Shown here: piece after piece, positions 5,858 through 63,183 of the stretch
How the letters are laid out: every line of letters starts with the position of its first letter
Numbering within the stretch: the first letter of the stretch is position 1
Origin: an uncultured Verrucomicrobiales bacterium
Lineage (GTDB): Bacteria > Verrucomicrobiota > Verrucomicrobiia > Verrucomicrobiales > Akkermansiaceae
Length of the DNA stretch: 64,000 nucleotides
Assembly (NCBI GenBank): GCA_937928545.1
Contig: CALGJQ010000011.1
Location: forward strand, 62,001-126,000
Direction: 5' to 3'
The notes under the pieces: generated by a model
Seen by the model: the letters and a program-made list of their open reading frames with translations, nothing else
What the model was told of the DNA's origin: nothing
Databases searched by the model: none
Program-made: the position numbers and the translations under genes

Positions 5858-7585
5858 ATGAGCAAAAAGAAAATCGACGGAGCACAGGCTCTCATCAAGA
5901 CTCTTGATGACCTCGGAATCGAATACATCTTCGGATATTCCGGCGGTGCAGCCATTCCTATTTTTGACGCCTTAGAAACCGTCAAAACCAAGATGAAGTT
6001 CATTCTCGTTCGTCACGAGCAAGGAGCAGTTCACATGGCAGACGGCTACGCCCGCGCCACTGGCAAGCCAGCTGCGGTTCTCGTCACCTCTGGACCAGGA
6101 GCAGGAAACACCGTCACTGGCCTCATGACCGCTCAGATGGACTCCGTCCCCATGCTCGTGATCTGCGGACAGCAAGTCACTTGGATGCTTGGGAAGGACG
6201 CCTTCCAAGAAGCGGACATTTTCGGAATCACCGTTCCCGTCGTTAAGCACAACTATCTCGTTAAGGAGACCAACGATCTCGTGCGCATTACCAAAGAAGC
6301 TCATCACATCGCGACCACCGGCCGCCCGGGCCCTGTCCTCATCGATGTTCCTAAAGATGTTTCTTCAGGAGACTTCACCGCCTCCATGGATCCTGAGCTC
6401 GATCTCCCCGGCTACGATCCTTACGAATCTCTCAATATCGACCCGAAAGGGGTCGCCGATGTCGTCGCCTTAATCAAGGAAGCCAAGCGCCCCGTCATTC
6501 TGGCCGGCCAAGGCACCATGATTTCCCGCGCCGACAAGGAACTCATGGAGCTAGCGGAAACTCTCCGTTGCCCAGTCACCTCCACCCTTTTAGGAAAAGG
6601 CGTCTTCCCCGAGACTCACGAACTCAGCCTCGGGATGCTCGGAATGCACGGCACCGCCTATGCCAACAAAGCGATGTGTGAGTGCGATCTCCTCATCAAT
6701 GTCGGCTCCCGTTTCGACGACCGCATTATCGGTCAGCCAGACAAGTTCTGCGCCGACGCCAAGATCGTCCACATCGACATCGACCCCGCCGAGATGGACA
6801 AGATGATCCGTCCCGACGTTCAGATCGTCGGAGATGCCAAAGCGGCCCTCGCCCTCATCAATCAAGAAATCGAGCCCCTCGAAACCGCCGATTGGCTCAA
6901 GAAATTGGACGGCTACAAGAAGAAGTTCCCCCTTGCCTACAAAAAGCAAGGCGGCCTGCGCATGCAGCAAGTCATTGAGGAACTTTACGAGCAAACCGAG
7001 GGCAAGGCCATCGTCTCCACCGACGTCGGTCAGCACCAAATGTGGGCTGCTCAGTTTTACAAGAACAACGAATCCTACCACTGGCTCTCTTCTGGAGGTG
7101 CCGGAACCATGGGCTTCGGATTCCCCGCCGCAATTGGTGCTCAGCTCGCTCAGCCTGACAAAATGGTGATCTCGATCTCTGGAGACGGAGGATTCCAAAT
7201 GACCCTCTTCGAATTGGCCACCGCCGCCATTCACAAGCTTCCCATCAAGATCGTGGTTCTCAACAACCACTACCTCGGAATGGTTCGCCAATGGCAGGAG
7301 CTCTTCTTTGAAAACCGCGAATCCGGAGTCGACCTCGAAGGAAACCCTGACTTCTGCAAGCTCGCAGCAGCCTACGGAATCCCCAGTGTCCACTTCAAGC
7401 GCCCCGCTGATTGCAAACGTAAGATCGAAGAGGCCCTCGCCTATAACGATGGCCCCATCCTCATTCACGCTGAGTGCGTGAAATATGAAAACGTCTTCCC
7501 GATGATCCCTGCCGGAGCCGCGCTCGAAGACATGATCACCGAGCCGCCGAAACACCAAATGGCGAAACCCACTGGATCGACCTAA
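5858..7585 (+). CDS. ilvB: Acetolactate synthase large subunit
   Basis: Thiamine-diphosphate enzyme for the first shared step of valine, leucine and isoleucine synthesis, joining pyruvate to pyruvate or 2-oxobutyrate. The 575-residue protein begins with an [11 protein letters not shown] segment and carries the catalytic-Glu region [16 protein letters not shown], the FAD-binding central part and the TPP/Mg motif [12 protein letters not shown] with downstream LNN. ilvN follows after 94 bases, so the two subunits probably form one unit. The 166-base leader shows no obvious peptide attenuator. Confidence 0.96.
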
Positions 7586-7679
7586 AAAAGTGACTAGGGG
7601 ACTGAGTTAGCGAGTTATTAAGCCTCACTGCTACCGTCGTCCCTTAACATCATAACCAATAACCAAATCACTTGATTTC

Positions 7680-8219
7680 ATGTCCAAGACAATCGTAACC
7701 ACCGATACTCCGGTTGAAGACGCCACCCGTGGTGCTTCAAACACTCTTTCGATCCTCGTGAACAACAGCCCTGGCGTGCTCATGCGCATCTGCCAGGTCT
7801 TCTCACGACGAGCATTCAATATTGATTCCCTTGTCGTTTCCGAGGGGCGCACTGGTGCCTTCTCTCGCATGACGATCGACGTCTCAGGCCACCCCGATGG
7901 CTTGGAGCAGATCATCAAGCAGGTGAACAAGCTCATTGATGTCATTCACTGCTTCGAGCACACCGCTCAAAACTCGGTGGTGCGTGAAATGCTCCTCGTG
8001 AAAATCCTTGCCGGAAATGATGAGCGCAACGCCGCCCTTCAAATCATCGAGCACTTCGCTGGTAAGACCGTCGACATGAGCCCCACTTCGATGGTTGCGA
8101 TGTTCACTGGAACGACGAGCAAACTCGACGCCGTCACACTCATGCTAAGTCAGTGCGAAGTCATCGAAACGATCCGCACCGGTAAAGTCGTGATGGCACG
8201 CGGCAGCCAAGCGACCTAA
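7680..8219 (+). CDS. ilvN: Acetolactate synthase small (regulatory) subunit
   Basis: Regulatory partner of IlvB that makes the holoenzyme valine-sensitive. The 179-residue protein has an ACT domain (HTLSILVNNSPGVLMRICQVFSRRAFNIDSL is its recognisable core, here starting NTLSILVNNSPGVL) and the usual C-terminal ALS_ss_C region containing VREMLLVKI. It is slightly longer at the N terminus than enterobacterial IlvH. It lies directly behind ilvB and before a hairpin terminator that it shares with convergent mpl. Confidence 0.95.
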   Translation: MSKTIVTTDTPVEDATRGASNTLSILVNNSPGVLMRICQVFSRRAFNIDSLVVSEGRTGAFSRMTIDVSGHPDGLEQIIKQVNKLIDVIHCFEHTAQNSVVREMLLVKILAGNDERNAALQIIEHFAGKTVDMSPTSMVAMFTGTTSKLDAVTLMLSQCEVIETIRTGKVVMARGSQAT

Positions 8220-57561: not shown

Positions 57562-57595
57562 GATGCTCAAAACCGTAACTCTAGCCGCAATAAAA

Positions 57596-58288
57596 ATGAA
57601 CCTCACCATCATCTGCTGTACTATCCTTCTCGCTCTTCCATTGTTTGCTCAAGAGAAAGAAAAAAAAGCCCCACACCCTGCGACCACCGCCGTTCTCACA
57701 TGGGTGAAAGCAGTGAAATCTGACACTCTTACGCCAAAGGACACACCTTTCCGCCCCAAAGACCTTGTTGCTTTAAAATCCGCTTCCAATAACGAAGGAG
57801 ACGTTCAAAAAAAGCTCGCAGAATTTATCATCGAAAACAAAAAGGGACTCCACTTTGTATTGAACAAAAAGAACCCAACAAAAGGCTTCTTAATATCAGA
57901 TGACAAAAAGCGTCTCTCAATGGTTAAAGAAGGAGATCGCTGGTTCATCGACACGCTTGCCAGCCTGAGAACAATTAAAGAAGAAGCGCAAAAAGAGACG
58001 GTTCTCGCTGACATCAGAGCATTAACTTCAAACCTTGAGATGTACAAGAACATCGGCGGCCGCTACCCATCCGTCGAGCAAGGTCTAAAGTCTCTTGTCA
58101 AAAAGCCCAACTCTTCACCGCGGCCCCGCCGTTGGGTCCAAAGTATCGACTCTGTCGATTCCCTCAATGATCCGTGGGGAAATCCTTATCAATACCGGCT
58201 CGTGGATGATGCCCCTCAAATCTCATCTCTCGGTCCTGACGGAAAGATTAGCAAAGACGATATCGCCCTCTCAAAAATAGTCCGGTAA
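57596..58288 (+). CDS. Secreted protein with GspG-like head domain
   Basis: About 230 residues from ATG 57596, which gives a clean signal peptide (MNLTIICCTILLALPLFAQ); ATG 57563 is an alternative. The middle is Lys-rich and unassigned. The last 95 or so residues match the C-terminal domain of type II secretion major pseudopilin GspG: LEMYKNIGGRYPSVEQGL, DPWGNPYQYR and SLGPDGKISKDD, including the calcium-loop-like end. The usual prepilin N-terminal helix and its Gly-Phe cleavage site are absent, so it is not a standard pilin. Role unknown. Confidence 0.75.
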   Translation: MNLTIICCTILLALPLFAQEKEKKAPHPATTAVLTWVKAVKSDTLTPKDTPFRPKDLVALKSASNNEGDVQKKLAEFIIENKKGLHFVLNKKNPTKGFLISDDKKRLSMVKEGDRWFIDTLASLRTIKEEAQKETVLADIRALTSNLEMYKNIGGRYPSVEQGLKSLVKKPNSSPRPRRWVQSIDSVDSLNDPWGNPYQYRLVDDAPQISSLGPDGKISKDDIALSKIVR

Positions 58289-58467: not shown

Positions 58468-60381
58468 ATGAAAGCCATCCTATCTATCCTCGCCGCGCTC
58501 ACGACCTTCACGCACGCCTCTGAGCAATCTCCTCACTTCCAAATTCACGGGAAGCATCAAGTCGATTCCTTCCCGCTGAAATCCTCGCACTCCGAGGTCA
58601 CGATCACCGGCCCCATTGCCGAGGTCACTCTCACCCAAACTTACACCAACGATGGCGACGCTCCCATCGATGCCACCTATCTCTTCCCCGCTTCTACCAA
58701 AGCCGCCGTCCATGGCATGACGATGACAATCGGCGACCGAACCATCGTCGCGGAAATCCAAGAGAAAGAAAAAGCCCGCGCCACTTTCGAAAAGGCCAAG
58801 AGCCAAAACAAGTCCGCCAGCCTCCTCACTCAGAAACGCCCTAATGTCTTCTCGATGGAGGTCGCCCGCATTCTCCCCGGCGACGAACTCAGCCTCACGC
58901 TGCGTTACTCCGAAATTCTCGTCCCGAACTCCAGCACCTACGAATTCGTCATCCCCACCGCCATCGGTCCGCGCTACGAAGGCGAGAGCAAAAGCCAAAA
59001 AAGCATCGCCAACCCTTTCCTAGATCAAGGCGCTAGCATCCCCACTCGCTTCTCACTCTCTCTTGCTCTCACCAGCCCGCTTCCCATCAAATCACTCGCT
59101 TGCCCGAGCCACGAATCAGCCAAGATCCACTTCGACAGCAAAACCGAAGCCAAACTCCTTCTCCCAAGCACCACGCCCGACCGCGATTTCGTCCTCCGTT
59201 ATCAGCTCGCCGGACAAAAAATCCAAAGCGGACTTCTCAGCCACCAAGGCCCTGACGAAAACACCTTCCTTCTCCAAATCGAGTCCCCCATCGACGTCTC
59301 TCCACAAGACATCCCCGAGCGCGACTTCATCTTCGTGGTCGATGTCTCCGGCTCCATGACCGGCTTCCCCCTCAATCTCGCCAAAGACCTCTTCCGCGAG
59401 CTCACCACCGCTCTGCGACCCGAAGACAGCTTCAACATGCTCCTCTTCGCCGGAGACAATCAAATCCTCTCACCCCAATCCCTTCCAGCAACCCCCGCGA
59501 ACATTAAACAAGCCATCCACTTCCTCCAGAGCAAACGCGGCGGCGGCGGCACCAAGCTCCTCAACGCGCTCGACCAAGCCTTCGATCTCCCTCACGACCA
59601 CGATCGCTCCCGCTCGCTCGTCCTGATCTCAGATGGCTTCATCTCGGCCGAAGTCGAAGTCTTCGACCTCATCAAAAACAAAGCGAAAGGAACCAACATC
59701 TTCCCTCTCGGGGTCGGCTCCAGCGTCAACCGTCACCTCATCGAGGGCCTCAGCCACTTTGCGGGAAACGATCACGTCATCGTCTCCCACTCCACCGAAA
59801 GCGACGCTGCGAAAGAACGCTTCATCAAGTCCATCTCCCTCCCTGTCCTGACCAATATTCAAGTGAAGGCCGAAGGCGTCACCCTCAGTGATCTCCTTCC
59901 CGCCCGTCAGCCCGACCTCTTTGCCGGACAACCGCTCTCCCTCGTCGGGAAGTGGACAGGCAAAAGCGGAACAATCACCATGACCGGCACCACCGGAAGC
60001 GGAAAGAAGATCTCACAGAGCTTCACCATCAGCCCCGAACAAAGCGAACCCACTCTCCCCATCCTCTGGGCCCGCAACAAAGTACGGGAACTCTCTGACT
60101 TCGCCACCCTCTCGAAGCGTGACTCTGAAAAAGAAGAAGTGACGCGACTCGGTCTCAAATACCAACTCCTCACGCCCTACACCTCCTTCGTGGCTGTCGC
60201 GCCAGAAACCCGCAGTAACAAAAACAACAGCGTGGCAGTCAAACAAGCCCTCCCGCTTCCCAAAGGAGTCTCGAACCATGCCAAAACCGGGTCATCAGGA
60301 TCAGTCCCAGAACCCGGCACCGGACTACTCGTCATCCTCGTCGGCCTCCTCACCCTCGGTCTCCGCGTTCGCCGCAGCTAA
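58468..60381 (+). CDS. VIT and vWA domain protein with PEP-CTERM tail
   Basis: 637 residues. Signal peptide at 1-17. VIT domain about 30-160 (SEVTITGPIAEVTLTQTY, KARATFEKAKSQNKSASLL in part, LPGDELSLTLRYSEI). vWA domain from about 285 with an intact MIDAS start DVSGSM (D292) and SRSLVLISDGFISAEV. The C terminus is VPEPGTGLLVILVGLLTLGL and RVRRS: PEP motif (614-616), hydrophobic helix and Arg cluster, a PEP-CTERM sorting signal. It is followed 19 bases later by an exosortase gene, so it is probably that enzyme's substrate. Similar VIT-vWA proteins are partners of dedicated sortases and exosortases in other phyla. Confidence 0.9.
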   Translation: MKAILSILAALTTFTHASEQSPHFQIHGKHQVDSFPLKSSHSEVTITGPIAEVTLTQTYTNDGDAPIDATYLFPASTKAAVHGMTMTIGDRTIVAEIQEKEKARATFEKAKSQNKSASLLTQKRPNVFSMEVARILPGDELSLTLRYSEILVPNSSTYEFVIPTAIGPRYEGESKSQKSIANPFLDQGASIPTRFSLSLALTSPLPIKSLACPSHESAKIHFDSKTEAKLLLPSTTPDRDFVLRYQLAGQKIQSGLLSHQGPDENTFLLQIESPIDVSPQDIPERDFIFVVDVSGSMTGFPLNLAKDLFRELTTALRPEDSFNMLLFAGDNQILSPQSLPATPANIKQAIHFLQSKRGGGGTKLLNALDQAFDLPHDHDRSRSLVLISDGFISAEVEVFDLIKNKAKGTNIFPLGVGSSVNRHLIEGLSHFAGNDHVIVSHSTESDAAKERFIKSISLPVLTNIQVKAEGVTLSDLLPARQPDLFAGQPLSLVGKWTGKSGTITMTGTTGSGKKISQSFTISPEQSEPTLPILWARNKVRELSDFATLSKRDSEKEEVTRLGLKYQLLTPYTSFVAVAPETRSNKNNSVAVKQALPLPKGVSNHAKTGSSGSVPEPGTGLLVILVGLLTLGLRVRRS

Positions 60382-60400
60382 CTTTCCCCGGACAACTGAG

Positions 60401-61684
60401 ATGAACACCCGAAAGCTCCTCGCTCTCATCGCCCTCACGGTCGCCTTCTTCCCAGTCCTGAACTGGTATTGGCTCCGTCTCGGCAATGGTAGCGGGGAGC
60501 CCTTCGGCCTACTCGCCCTTGCTCTCGCGGTCGGCTTCGCCCTGCAGGATCGCCAGCCCGCTCAGCTTCGCTTTGCAGAAATCTCCCTCCTCATCTACGC
60601 GATCGGCCTCTTCTTCCTCCCCCCGCTCCTCCGCAGTATCCCCGCCCTCGCCACCATTGCCTTCCTCTCCGGAATGCACCGTCAAGCGGGACAATTCGCC
60701 CTGCTCCTCCTCTCACTCCCAGTTCAAGCCTCACTCGATTTCTTCCTCGGCTATCCCTTCCGCCTCATCACGGCCGAAGGTTCCCGCCTGCTCGTGAACC
60801 TCCTTGGCTATCCCGTCGAGCGGCTAGGCGTCCAACTCTCGTTAAAAGGCGTCATCGTCTCGGTCGATCCGCCCTGCAGCGGTCTCCAGATGCTCTGGGC
60901 CACCGCGCTCCTCACCGCCATCCTCGCCGCTCTCTTCCGCCTCAGTTACTTCCGCACCTTCAAGCTCAGCCTCATCGCCCTGACCCTCTGCCTCCTCGCC
61001 AACATCCTCCGCGCAGCCTTCCTCTTCTTCCCCGAGTCAGGAATGATCACTCTCCCAGGATTCCTACACGAAGGAATGGGCCTCCTCTTCTTTGCCCTCG
61101 CTAGTCTCGTCCTTTGCCAAATGGCTCGCAGCTTTCAAAAAGCCACGCCCTCCCTTCCTCTTCCTAAAAAACAAAACCCCACTCGCCTCCTCACTCTCGC
61201 CTGCGGAGTTTCACTCATCACCCTCCTTCCTGCCCGAACTCACAGTCCAAACCCGCCCTCAAACTTCGAAAGCCTCAGCACATATCACGGACGGGCAGTC
61301 GAGGAAGTCTCTCTCAGCCCCCGCGAAGAATCATTCGCCGAAAATTTCCCCGGTCAGCTCAAGATCTACCGCGTCGGGCATGACACCCTCATCATTCGCC
61401 GCATCACGAAAGCCTCCCGCATGCTCCACCCCAGCTATCATTGCCTCAAAGCGGAAGGCTTCATCATCAGCGATTCTCAAATCGAAAGCGACGACCAAGG
61501 CCAGCCCTTCCTCCGCTACCGCGCCACTCGAAATGACGAAGCCTTCCTCGTCAGCGAAAAGATCCGCGATCTCCAAAACACCAAGCAATGGACTGAAGTC
61601 TCGGCCTGGTATTGGCATGCCCTCTTCCACCCAAACTCCGGCCCTTGGGAAGCCGAAACTCTCATGACCCCAATCCAACTATGA
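60401..61684 (+). CDS. Exosortase with C-terminal periplasmic domain
   Basis: 427 residues from ATG 60401. The first 270 residues contain about eight membrane helices and the exosortase active site: C159 in PPCSGLQMLW, R204 in ANILRAAFLFF and H223 in FLHEGMGLLFF. The remaining part (about 290-427) is a soluble region, with LHPSYHCLKAEGF reminiscent of EpsI-like domains fused to some exosortases. It would cleave and transfer PEP-CTERM proteins at the membrane. It is placed between its likely substrate (VIT-vWA) and a membrane protein gene that it overlaps by 4 bases. Confidence 0.9.
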   Translation: MNTRKLLALIALTVAFFPVLNWYWLRLGNGSGEPFGLLALALAVGFALQDRQPAQLRFAEISLLIYAIGLFFLPPLLRSIPALATIAFLSGMHRQAGQFALLLLSLPVQASLDFFLGYPFRLITAEGSRLLVNLLGYPVERLGVQLSLKGVIVSVDPPCSGLQMLWATALLTAILAALFRLSYFRTFKLSLIALTLCLLANILRAAFLFFPESGMITLPGFLHEGMGLLFFALASLVLCQMARSFQKATPSLPLPKKQNPTRLLTLACGVSLITLLPARTHSPNPPSNFESLSTYHGRAVEEVSLSPREESFAENFPGQLKIYRVGHDTLIIRRITKASRMLHPSYHCLKAEGFIISDSQIESDDQGQPFLRYRATRNDEAFLVSEKIRDLQNTKQWTEVSAWYWHALFHPNSGPWEAETLMTPIQL

Positions 61685-62430
61685 ACGAACAAAATACCAA
61701 TAGCCTCGGCCATCTCTTCGAAGGCCTCCTCAAAAGCCCGCTGACTCTGATCGAAGAGATTCGCGCGAACAAAAACCCCGGACACATCATCGGGAAGCTC
61801 CTCCTCATCACCCTCGTCGGCTTCCTGATCTTTGGAGTCACTCTGGGCAGTTTCTCCTTCGGCGAACAACTCTGGGCCGCGCCCGTGAAAGCCCTTCTCG
61901 GCATCAGCTTAAGCACCATCATTTGCCTCCCTAGCCTTTACATCTTCTCCGCTCTCACCGGCACGAGCTTGGGGATGAAAGAGATCGCGCAAGGAATGGC
62001 CGGAGCCCTCGCTCTCATCGCCAGCCTTCTTCTCGGCTTCACGCCAGTTCTCTGGGTTTTCTCTCAATCGACCACCTCCGAGGCCTTCTTCGGCTTCCTC
62101 GTTCTCCTCACCTGGCTCATCGCCCTTTTCTTCGGGACTGGCTTCCTCATCAAAATGCTGACCCAAAGCGGCACCGAAAAAAACACCCCCCTCAAAATTT
62201 GGATCGGGATTTTCCTCCTCGTCACCCTACAAATGTCGACTACCCTCCGCCCGCTCATCGGGACGTCTGATCAATTTTTCAACAGCGAGAAACGCTTCTT
62301 CCTCGCACACTGGGCCATGGACACCGAACCCGACGGCTTGGGCTTCAATCGAGGCGGACCACCTTCCGGCGATGAGAGTCCAAAGAAGAAGAAAGGGAAC
62401 TCAAAGGAAAACCCCTTCCTCGAAGAATAA
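61681..62430 (+). CDS. Multi-pass membrane protein (Yip1-like) in the exosortase unit
   Basis: 249 residues; its ATG overlaps the exosortase stop by 4 bases (ATGA at 61681). About five membrane helices, with the common pattern IIGKLLLITLVGFLIFG, a middle GTSLGMKEIAQGMAGA and IWIGIFLLVTLQ. It ends in a hydrophilic Lys/Pro tail. It resembles Yip1-domain-like proteins, which are structural rather than catalytic, but assignment is weak. The coupling suggests a helper role for the exosortase. Confidence 0.7.
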   Translation: MNEQNTNSLGHLFEGLLKSPLTLIEEIRANKNPGHIIGKLLLITLVGFLIFGVTLGSFSFGEQLWAAPVKALLGISLSTIICLPSLYIFSALTGTSLGMKEIAQGMAGALALIASLLLGFTPVLWVFSQSTTSEAFFGFLVLLTWLIALFFGTGFLIKMLTQSGTEKNTPLKIWIGIFLLVTLQMSTTLRPLIGTSDQFFNSEKRFFLAHWAMDTEPDGLGFNRGGPPSGDESPKKKKGNSKENPFLEE

Positions 62431-62515
62431 TATGGAGAGCGGGCTTGTAGCCCGCTTACCCTCTGCAAAAGCCCTCTTGGTTGTGGATGAAGCGGGCTAC
62501 AAGCCCACTCTCCTT
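62431..62515. repeat. REP-like element, copy 1
   Basis: Left arm GGAGAGCGGGCTTGTAGCCC and right arm ending GGGCTACAAGCCCACTCTCC are inverted copies around a spacer of about 40 bases. It begins directly after the membrane protein stop. Within the left arm AGCGGGCTTGTAGCCCGCT is itself a hairpin. Confidence 0.8.
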
Positions 62516-62572
62516 ATTCCCACTCTCCGCCCCGCCCATCGGGAGGTCGGATGACCTCTTCCTCAAGTAACA

Positions 62573-62652
62573 TTATGGAGAGCGGGCTTGCAGCCCGCTT
62601 ACCCTCAACCAAGTCCCCTCTCAAAACCAAGCGGGCTACAAGCCCACTCTCC
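62573..62652. repeat. REP-like element, copy 2
   Basis: Second copy of the same element: left arm GGAGAGCGGGCTTGCAGCCC, right arm GGGCTACAAGCCCACTCTCC. Orientation matches copy 1, with 57 bases between the copies. It abuts the stop of the Nudix gene. The two copies and the solitary arm at 50345 form one dispersed family. Confidence 0.8.
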
Positions 62653-63183
62653 TTATTTCCACCCTCGCCAACGCCCCAAAGACTTCTCCCCAAAAACGAC
62701 ATCGTGCCAGATGATCTTCTCTTCGGCGAAGAGGAACTTAGCATCAAAACTCTGTCCCTTCAGCGCTTGCCGCAGCCAGTAGGAATCATCTTCCCACATC
62801 CGCTCAAAAGGAATCTCGGCAATCTCACACCAATGAGGATTCGCCTCGCGAGTCGCGGTGGGCGTGCCTTCGAATTCCGTCGCGGTATAAACGTGGCAAT
62901 GAATATCCGGCAAATCCGACATCGCGAACCACAGCTCCCCCCGCTTCACCGGATTCAGACAAGTGATGTGCAGTTCTTCTTGGCATTCACGAATCACTCC
63001 CTCTTCCGGCGTTTCACCGGGATCGATTTTCCCGCCGGGGCCATTGATCTTTCCCATCCCGATTCCAGTGAGCTTCTCGATCAAGAGAACCCGACTCCCC
63101 TGATGCACAAACATCAAGGTTGCATGAAGATCTGGCTTCCAATTCGCCCAATCTGGCGTGTCGTTATATTGATTCTCGGGCAT
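62653..63183 (-). CDS. Nudix hydrolase (MutT/MTH1-like)
   Basis: 176 residues from ATG 63183. The Nudix box is intact: [16 protein letters not shown] with RECQEEL (GG, Glu, REx2EE positions). The rest ([26 protein letters not shown]) resembles 8-oxo-dGTP diphosphatases of the MTH1 type, which clean oxidised nucleotides. The exact substrate is inferred. The start overlaps the gcvP stop by about 20 bases. Confidence 0.88.

Follow-up and report, generated by a model that had tools for sequence, protein, structure and literature searches.

Proteins that combine a VIT domain with a vWA domain have been described with several kinds of C-terminal tail. In the part of one paper that deals with them, homologs carry GlyGly-CTERM, LPXTG with an adjoining dedicated sortase, or PEP-CTERM, and for a PEP-CTERM homolog in Verrucomicrobium spinosum DSM 4136 an exosortase is named as the cognate enzyme (PMC3237569, 2011). 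The stretch of DNA analyzed here (the window, 64,000 nucleotides from an uncultured Verrucomicrobiales bacterium) encodes a VIT-vWA protein of this kind directly upstream of an exosortase. We suspect, with a probability of about 0.82, that the two genes form a cassette in which the exosortase acts on its own VIT-vWA target, which would be exported, cleaved and take up a role at the cell surface. Gene pairing, co-occurrence, tree grouping, conserved residues and sorting tails were established by computation. The pairing is of an ordinary kind; it is well conserved and extends further than a preliminary description of this DNA had assumed.

The VIT-vWA gene and the exosortase gene

The target gene (58468..60381; all features given here are on the + strand) encodes a 637-aa protein recognized by Pfam and NCBIfam domain matches, with a VIT domain at residues 37-147 (Pfam, 116.9 bits) and a vWA domain at residues ~287-444 (Pfam, 54.7 bits). 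The vWA domain has the sequence DVSGS at residue 292, which we take to be a motif of the type called MIDAS. The protein ends in a PEP-CTERM sorting tail, SVPEPGTGLLVILVGLLTLGLRVRRS (60301..60378, residues 612-636), which scores 17.6 bits against TIGR02595 in the protein scan, above the cut-off of 16, and is thus assigned to PEP-CTERM. The same tail reaches 22.0 bits in a genome-wide TIGR02595 search, and 16.8 bits against Pfam PF07589, under the cut-off of 20.7. TIGR03788, the model for the target of the sortase TIGR03784 (presumably the one named class GN), gives 376.4 bits with the VIT-vWA protein, below its cut-off of 551.65.

The XrtQ-like exosortase (60401..61684, 427 aa, membrane core at residues ~1-245), identified by PF09721, NCBIfam models and a tree, starts with an ATG at 60401, 19 bases past the VIT-vWA stop. 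Its score against PF09721 (91.9 bits, cut-off 25.7) places it in the exosortase/archaeosortase superfamily. Cys159 (codon 60875..60877, located by alignment), Arg204 and His223, which we assume to be catalytic, are invariant in 41/41 aligned sequences. Coordinates and domain scans thus agree with the layout first described, including the intact residues, the 19-base spacing and the 4-base overlap of the exosortase with a membrane gene downstream.

The C-terminal part of the exosortase (61283..61681), delimited by alignment and predicted structure, is a fused domain in an EpsI-like position. Arg340, His343, Cys348, Trp403, Trp405 and Trp416 of this domain are invariant in 41/41 sequences, though the domain is encoded by a separate gene right after the exosortase core in several lineages. 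As had been proposed, it looks like a real part of the enzyme, judging from this conservation. No match to TIGR02914 (EpsI) was listed for it at E 1, and its likeness to the C-terminal part of gammaproteobacterial enzymes is weak (hhalign probability 24.8). The AlphaFold2 model of the whole exosortase has a mean pLDDT of 89.4; it matched no solved structure at E 0.001, and a sequence search for solved relatives gave one match, at E 0.13, which we judged to be chance. Matches to the C-terminal domain that lack the membrane core occur in two genomes, G029 (locus L117, 9235-9879) and G090 (L024), the former directly 3' of a pair of membrane genes, MP1 and YIP, discussed below. Either may be a remnant or a free-standing copy.

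By analogy with known exosortase systems, the VIT-vWA protein would be exported by Sec and would then stay in the inner membrane, anchored through the PEP-CTERM helix at its C-terminus. The exosortase would cut near the Pro-Glu-Pro motif, with Cys159 as the nucleophile and Arg204 and His223 assisting. The cut protein could be released or transferred, possibly onto a lipid or glycan, and the vWA and VIT domains may act at the cell surface.

An XrtQ-like lineage and its VIT partners

Among the NCBIfam models, XrtQ (NF012182) scores best with the window exosortase (132.6 bits), followed by XrtT (85.4), XrtN (60.9), XrtO (58.8) and XrtA (53.2). The cut-offs of XrtQ (270), of the XrtN enzyme (TIGR04476, 200) and of XrtA/general EpsH (TIGR03109, 208) are not reached. 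That the protein falls short of the cut-off of each specific Xrt model listed is what could be expected of a new one-target exosortase type, evolved independently and confined to Verrucomicrobia, as the preliminary description had supposed. We consider such an origin very improbable, given the scores and tree placement of its relatives.

A profile search of genome contigs with an alignment of 12 orthologs returned 247 relatives, the best 80 of which are referred to here as named loci. These 80 come from Verrucomicrobiota, Pseudomonadota and records with the names Deltaproteobacteria, Bdellovibrionales, Eremiobacterota, Riflebacteria, Phycisphaerae, Melainabacteria and Pedobacter. A number of them are metagenome-assembled genomes (MAGs), in which contigs may be misbinned. 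By NCBI ranks, the records of the lineage fall in Verrucomicrobiota, Pseudomonadota, Myxococcota, Bdellovibrionota, Planctomycetota and others. When nine relatives were scanned as exosortases, three members of the proteobacterial group (L189, L191 and L205) passed the XrtQ cut-off, with 362 bits for Pseudomonas ullengensis, 398 for Variovorax ginsengisoli and 307 for a MAG named Pedobacter; five others scored 117-173 bits. The VIT proteins at L189 and L191 score 419 and 417 bits against TIGR03788, also under its cut-off.

The tree, rooted at the midpoint, has 80 rows: the window exosortase, 45 hand-picked Q-like loci and 34 others. It omits L246-L266 (21 loci, some of which are fragments and many of which duplicate Q-like loci) and 19/30 gammaproteobacterial-class loci, and contains no XrtN, XrtT or XrtO rows; XrtN sequences were sought for it, and 0/143 genomes had one over the model cut-off. 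All 46 Q-like rows, with the window exosortase and L189, L191 and L205 among them, are set off together by a branch with support 100/99. Many branches within this group are poorly separated, and its inner order is unsure. The group stands apart from the window genome's two other exosortases and from the gammaproteobacterial general exosortases, and a clustering with the general XrtA type, for which the tree was inspected, was not seen. Since some of its companions in this group pass the XrtQ model, the window exosortase is best placed as a verrucomicrobial branch of the XrtQ-like lineage, and its reading as an independently evolved type is not supported. The idea of a further type also had a precedent against it, in that a PEP-CTERM VIT-vWA protein of V. 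spinosum was in print, in the part of the paper concerned, in 2011 (PMC3237569).

The neighbor of this exosortase lineage is nearly always a VIT-family protein, as an inspection of gene neighborhoods had been expected to reveal if the pairing were specific. A soluble VIT-vWA gene lies directly upstream in 63/80 named loci, as detected by HMM on open frames, and tblastn added two more (L182, with a frame change, and L208). In six further loci (L178, L212, L224, L233, L237 and L240) the upstream gene encodes a larger, polytopic VIT protein with a PEP-CTERM tail, with Pfam VIT scores of 27.8-46.4 bits (cut-off 26.5) and weak scores of 82-122 bits against TIGR04477, the XrtN target (cut-off 250). 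This brings the VIT-family total to 71/80; at L230 no more than a fragment was seen, which matches vWA weakly and ends in a PEP tail. Soluble VIT-vWA and exosortase genes in the named loci are at most 327 bases apart, and the VIT genes of L173, L234, L182 and L210 are in pieces or truncated at contig ends. The tails of the soluble proteins have a PEP motif in 63/65 cases and PEA in one, while the L182 frame continues into the exosortase. Distances between VIT proteins correlate with those between exosortases (Spearman 0.75, 65 pairs, without a control gene), a value that shared descent alone could give.

A draw of 387 genomes from the phylum, with an exosortase threshold of E 1e-25, gave a similar result. 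Of these, 20 were exosortase-positive, and 19/20 have a VIT-family protein directly upstream; the exception, G307, has the weakest exosortase match. Fourteen of the 19 upstream proteins divide by profile into eight soluble and six polytopic ones, and in 14/14 a PEP motif occurs within 60 residues of the C-terminus. The polytopic proteins with a PEP-CTERM tail, recognized by profile only, are those of L374, L375, L377 and L379-L381. The recurrence of the pairing in distant bacteria looks like that of an old sorting system of one enzyme and one protein, rather than a new invention of one lineage. We lean somewhat toward the more specific view that one exosortase lineage is bound to VIT-domain partners while the body of the partner has been swapped between soluble VIT-vWA proteins and polytopic VIT proteins that weakly resemble the XrtN target. 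If this is true, the VIT domain, beyond the tail alone, would hold enzyme and target together.

Within the window's family, we sampled 97 genomes and counted an exosortase at E < 1e-39. Twenty-one genomes matched, of which four with weak matches (G027, G029, G032 and G090) were set aside, leaving 17 exosortase genomes. The samples overlap, in that some named loci are family or phylum genomes (e.g., L190/G417 and L181/G030), and the pairing statistics carry no correction for kinship. Even within the window's genus the exosortase is patchy, being present in 4/10 other genomes. The VIT gene is directly upstream of it in 14/17 family genomes. A close VIT ortholog (E < 1e-140, a threshold set after viewing the list) is found in 16/17 exosortase genomes and in 0/80 others (table 16/0/1/80), so the pairing is not due to chance. 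Any VIT match at E 1e-8 is much more common (35/97 genomes), and six distant VIT proteins (L084-L089), from genomes without the exosortase or from places away from it, have no PEP-CTERM in the last 32 residues. In G057 and G094, of the same genus as the window, fdhD, the membrane gene and a nudix gene adjoin, with VIT and exosortase genes both absent between them, a layout that may reflect gain as well as loss of the pair.

One enzyme with one probable target, and the neighboring genes

Exosortases are hard to study when a single enzyme serves dozens of targets. Of 16 genomes behind the loci, nine have only the XrtQ-like enzyme by PF09721. In 7/9 of these single-exosortase genomes no PEP-CTERM match scores higher than the tail of the adjoining VIT protein. 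This tail alone exceeds the cut-off in G097, G099, G100 and G102, it is accompanied by a second, weak match (18.1 bits) in G098, and it is best but just under the cut-off in G101 and G105 (15.0 and 15.2 vs 16). Six of the seven fitting genomes are proteobacterial by record title or class (G097 by class), and the seventh, G105, is a Verrucomicrobiales MAG.

Several observations weigh against strict dedication of the enzyme to one target. G108 has a single exosortase yet 35 PEP-CTERM matches, 28 of them over the cut-off, and G025, in which only the XrtQ-like exosortase was detected, has 24. In G112 the exosortase is alone, with no adjoining VIT protein found. Weak tail matches are noise, as the E 10 search gives matches in 12/14 control genomes, two of them over the cut-off. 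No upstream VIT-family protein or fragment was found in 8/80 named loci (L170, L172, L175, L185, L193, L195, L209 and L238); the contig of L193 starts inside the exosortase gene, and L170, L175 and L185 are records of one genus, other than the window's, that retains the exosortase without an adjoining VIT gene. In the three genomes of this genus in the family sample, the VIT gene is elsewhere in the genome in two and only a remnant in one (G059). Conversely, G086, one of the 80 genomes without an exosortase match, has a VIT fragment of 102 residues (73% identical) where a contig end truncates the gene. The window genome itself encodes two exosortases besides the XrtQ-like one, and its PEP-CTERM matches number 63, of which 60 exceed the cut-off. 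We looked for a score that would set the VIT tail apart from these and found none, as it ranks 42/63. Cross-processing may occur there.

Upstream of the XrtQ-like exosortase at L195 is a 257-aa frame (7243-8016) that begins like the polytopic VIT proteins and ends in a PEP-CTERM-like tail; no domain was found in it.

Alternatively, the window exosortase could be a redundant part of the general PEP-CTERM system with other targets too, and its adjacency to the VIT gene would then reflect co-transcription rather than exclusive dedication. The window VIT tail does score within the range of the genome's other tails, and G025 and G108 combine many PEP-CTERM tails with the XrtQ-like exosortase as their only one. 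However, the tree separates the window exosortase from the general enzymes, VIT gene and exosortase are present or absent together, and in 7/9 single-exosortase genomes the VIT protein gives the top PEP-CTERM score. A general role is thus disfavored by the tree and by co-occurrence, and we think it unlikely. In the window genome, exclusive use of the exosortase for the VIT-vWA protein can only be inferred from kinship, because of the two other exosortases, the 63 PEP-CTERM matches and the rank of the VIT tail.

Strains with one exosortase beside one apparent target offer a clean setting for locating the cleavage site and identifying the acceptor. These are Variovorax ginsengisoli S09.D, Parachitinimonas caeni DQS-5 and Agitococcus lubricus DSM 5822. 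Pseudomonas ullengensis UL070 likewise has a single exosortase and an adjoining target, with one further weak candidate.

The gene that follows the exosortase (61681..62430) overlaps its stop by 4 bases (ATGA) and encodes a membrane protein homologous to a common pair of genes, MP1 and YIP. Neither Pfam (at E 0.1) nor NCBIfam (at E 1) has a family that matches it. The label Yip1-like, given to it at first, is not borne out by Pfam, as no Yip1 match was listed at E 10 with filters that drop most matches above ~0.1. In the regions fetched, the membrane gene usually follows the homologous MP1 (hhalign probability 92.6).

If this membrane protein were an obligate chaperone, acceptor carrier or exporter, the system would have three genes. 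In addition to the overlap in the window, the orders VIT-Xrt-MP1-YIP (G082/L036, L163 and L187) and Xrt-MP1-YIP (L037-L039) are in line with this, as is an enrichment of the gene, matched in 60/97 family genomes, in those with the exosortase (15/17 vs 45/80, Fisher p 0.014, kinship uncorrected). But the gene is present in those 45 genomes that have no exosortase, it adjoins the exosortase, directly or via MP1, in only 8/17 genomes that do and is not adjacent in 9/17, and it was found in the examined flanks of only 12/80 named loci, none of them proteobacterial. In G065, other genes are downstream of the exosortase. An obligate role is therefore disfavored by the spread of the gene beyond exosortase genomes, despite the enrichment, and we regard it as improbable. 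The earlier suggestion that this protein belongs specifically to the system is not supported. It is probably a bystander; it may be a lineage-specific helper, although the former is more likely.

On the other side of the cassette, a gene with a GspG-like pseudopilin domain (57563-58288) lies between fdhD and the VIT gene, and no homolog of it was found among the related loci compared. Just past the membrane gene, at 62430-62660, repeated palindromic elements, gagcgggcttgtagcccgc / gcgggctacaagcccac, were seen by eye.

Outside the window, the third exosortase of the window genome (G000:C6:44231-44953; L003, L031) carries an in-frame TGA precisely where the catalytic Cys would be encoded. The TGA is common to orthologs from the same genus (G008:C34, loci L337 and L400; G040:C181, locus L129), and the frame past it is open for ~100 codons. 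A short hairpin ~17 bases past the TGA was predicted in a three-sequence alignment, although it is weak (z-scores -1.3, -1.7 and -0.1). This gene is a candidate for a selenocysteine exosortase, for readthrough or for a decaying enzyme. The loss, by eye, of His in G008 and of Arg and His in G040 counts against activity, and no selenocysteine tRNA was found in the ~1.23 of 3.98 Mb of the window genome that were scanned (the 3.8-kb contig L389 left out).

Comparison with known sorting systems

Among the papers listed, a literature search, mostly without subscription papers, found none on XrtQ or its partner, and none joining the terms exosortase and VIT domain. Nor did we find in that literature that XrtQ-like exosortases are linked to VIT proteins in several phyla, or that target architecture was exchanged within the lineage.

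The systems closest to the window cassette differ from it in the enzyme, the tail or the extent to which they were described. The VIT-vWA protein of V. spinosum agrees with it in the kind of target, the kind of tail, the phylum and the naming of a cognate exosortase, but section 12 of the paper shows a single protein and does not report whether the two genes adjoin, which type the exosortase is or how widely the pair occurs (PMC3237569). The class GN sortase (TIGR03784) also has a VIT-vWA target (TIGR03788), which the window protein matches over most of its length. There, however, as the relevant part of PMC3237569 describes the system, the tail is LPXTG and the enzyme a sortase unrelated to exosortases, whereas the window tail is PEP-CTERM.

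XrtN, by the names of the models, is an exosortase with a VIT-domain partner (TIGR04476 and TIGR04477). The window exosortase is distant from it (60.9 bits vs 200), a comparison made by model score. If the VIT partnership of the XrtQ-like lineage holds, VIT proteins would have been recruited repeatedly by different C-terminal processing systems, the others being the LPXTG sortase, the branch with GlyGly-CTERM tails and XrtN. The pairing also raises the question of why several different sorting enzymes have the same kind of VIT protein as a client. Among named types XrtQ is the nearest to the window exosortase: it is the best-scoring one, and its three passing members have a VIT-vWA gene directly upstream and belong to the same tree group, although the window enzyme itself scores about half the cut-off of that model (132.6 vs 270 bits).

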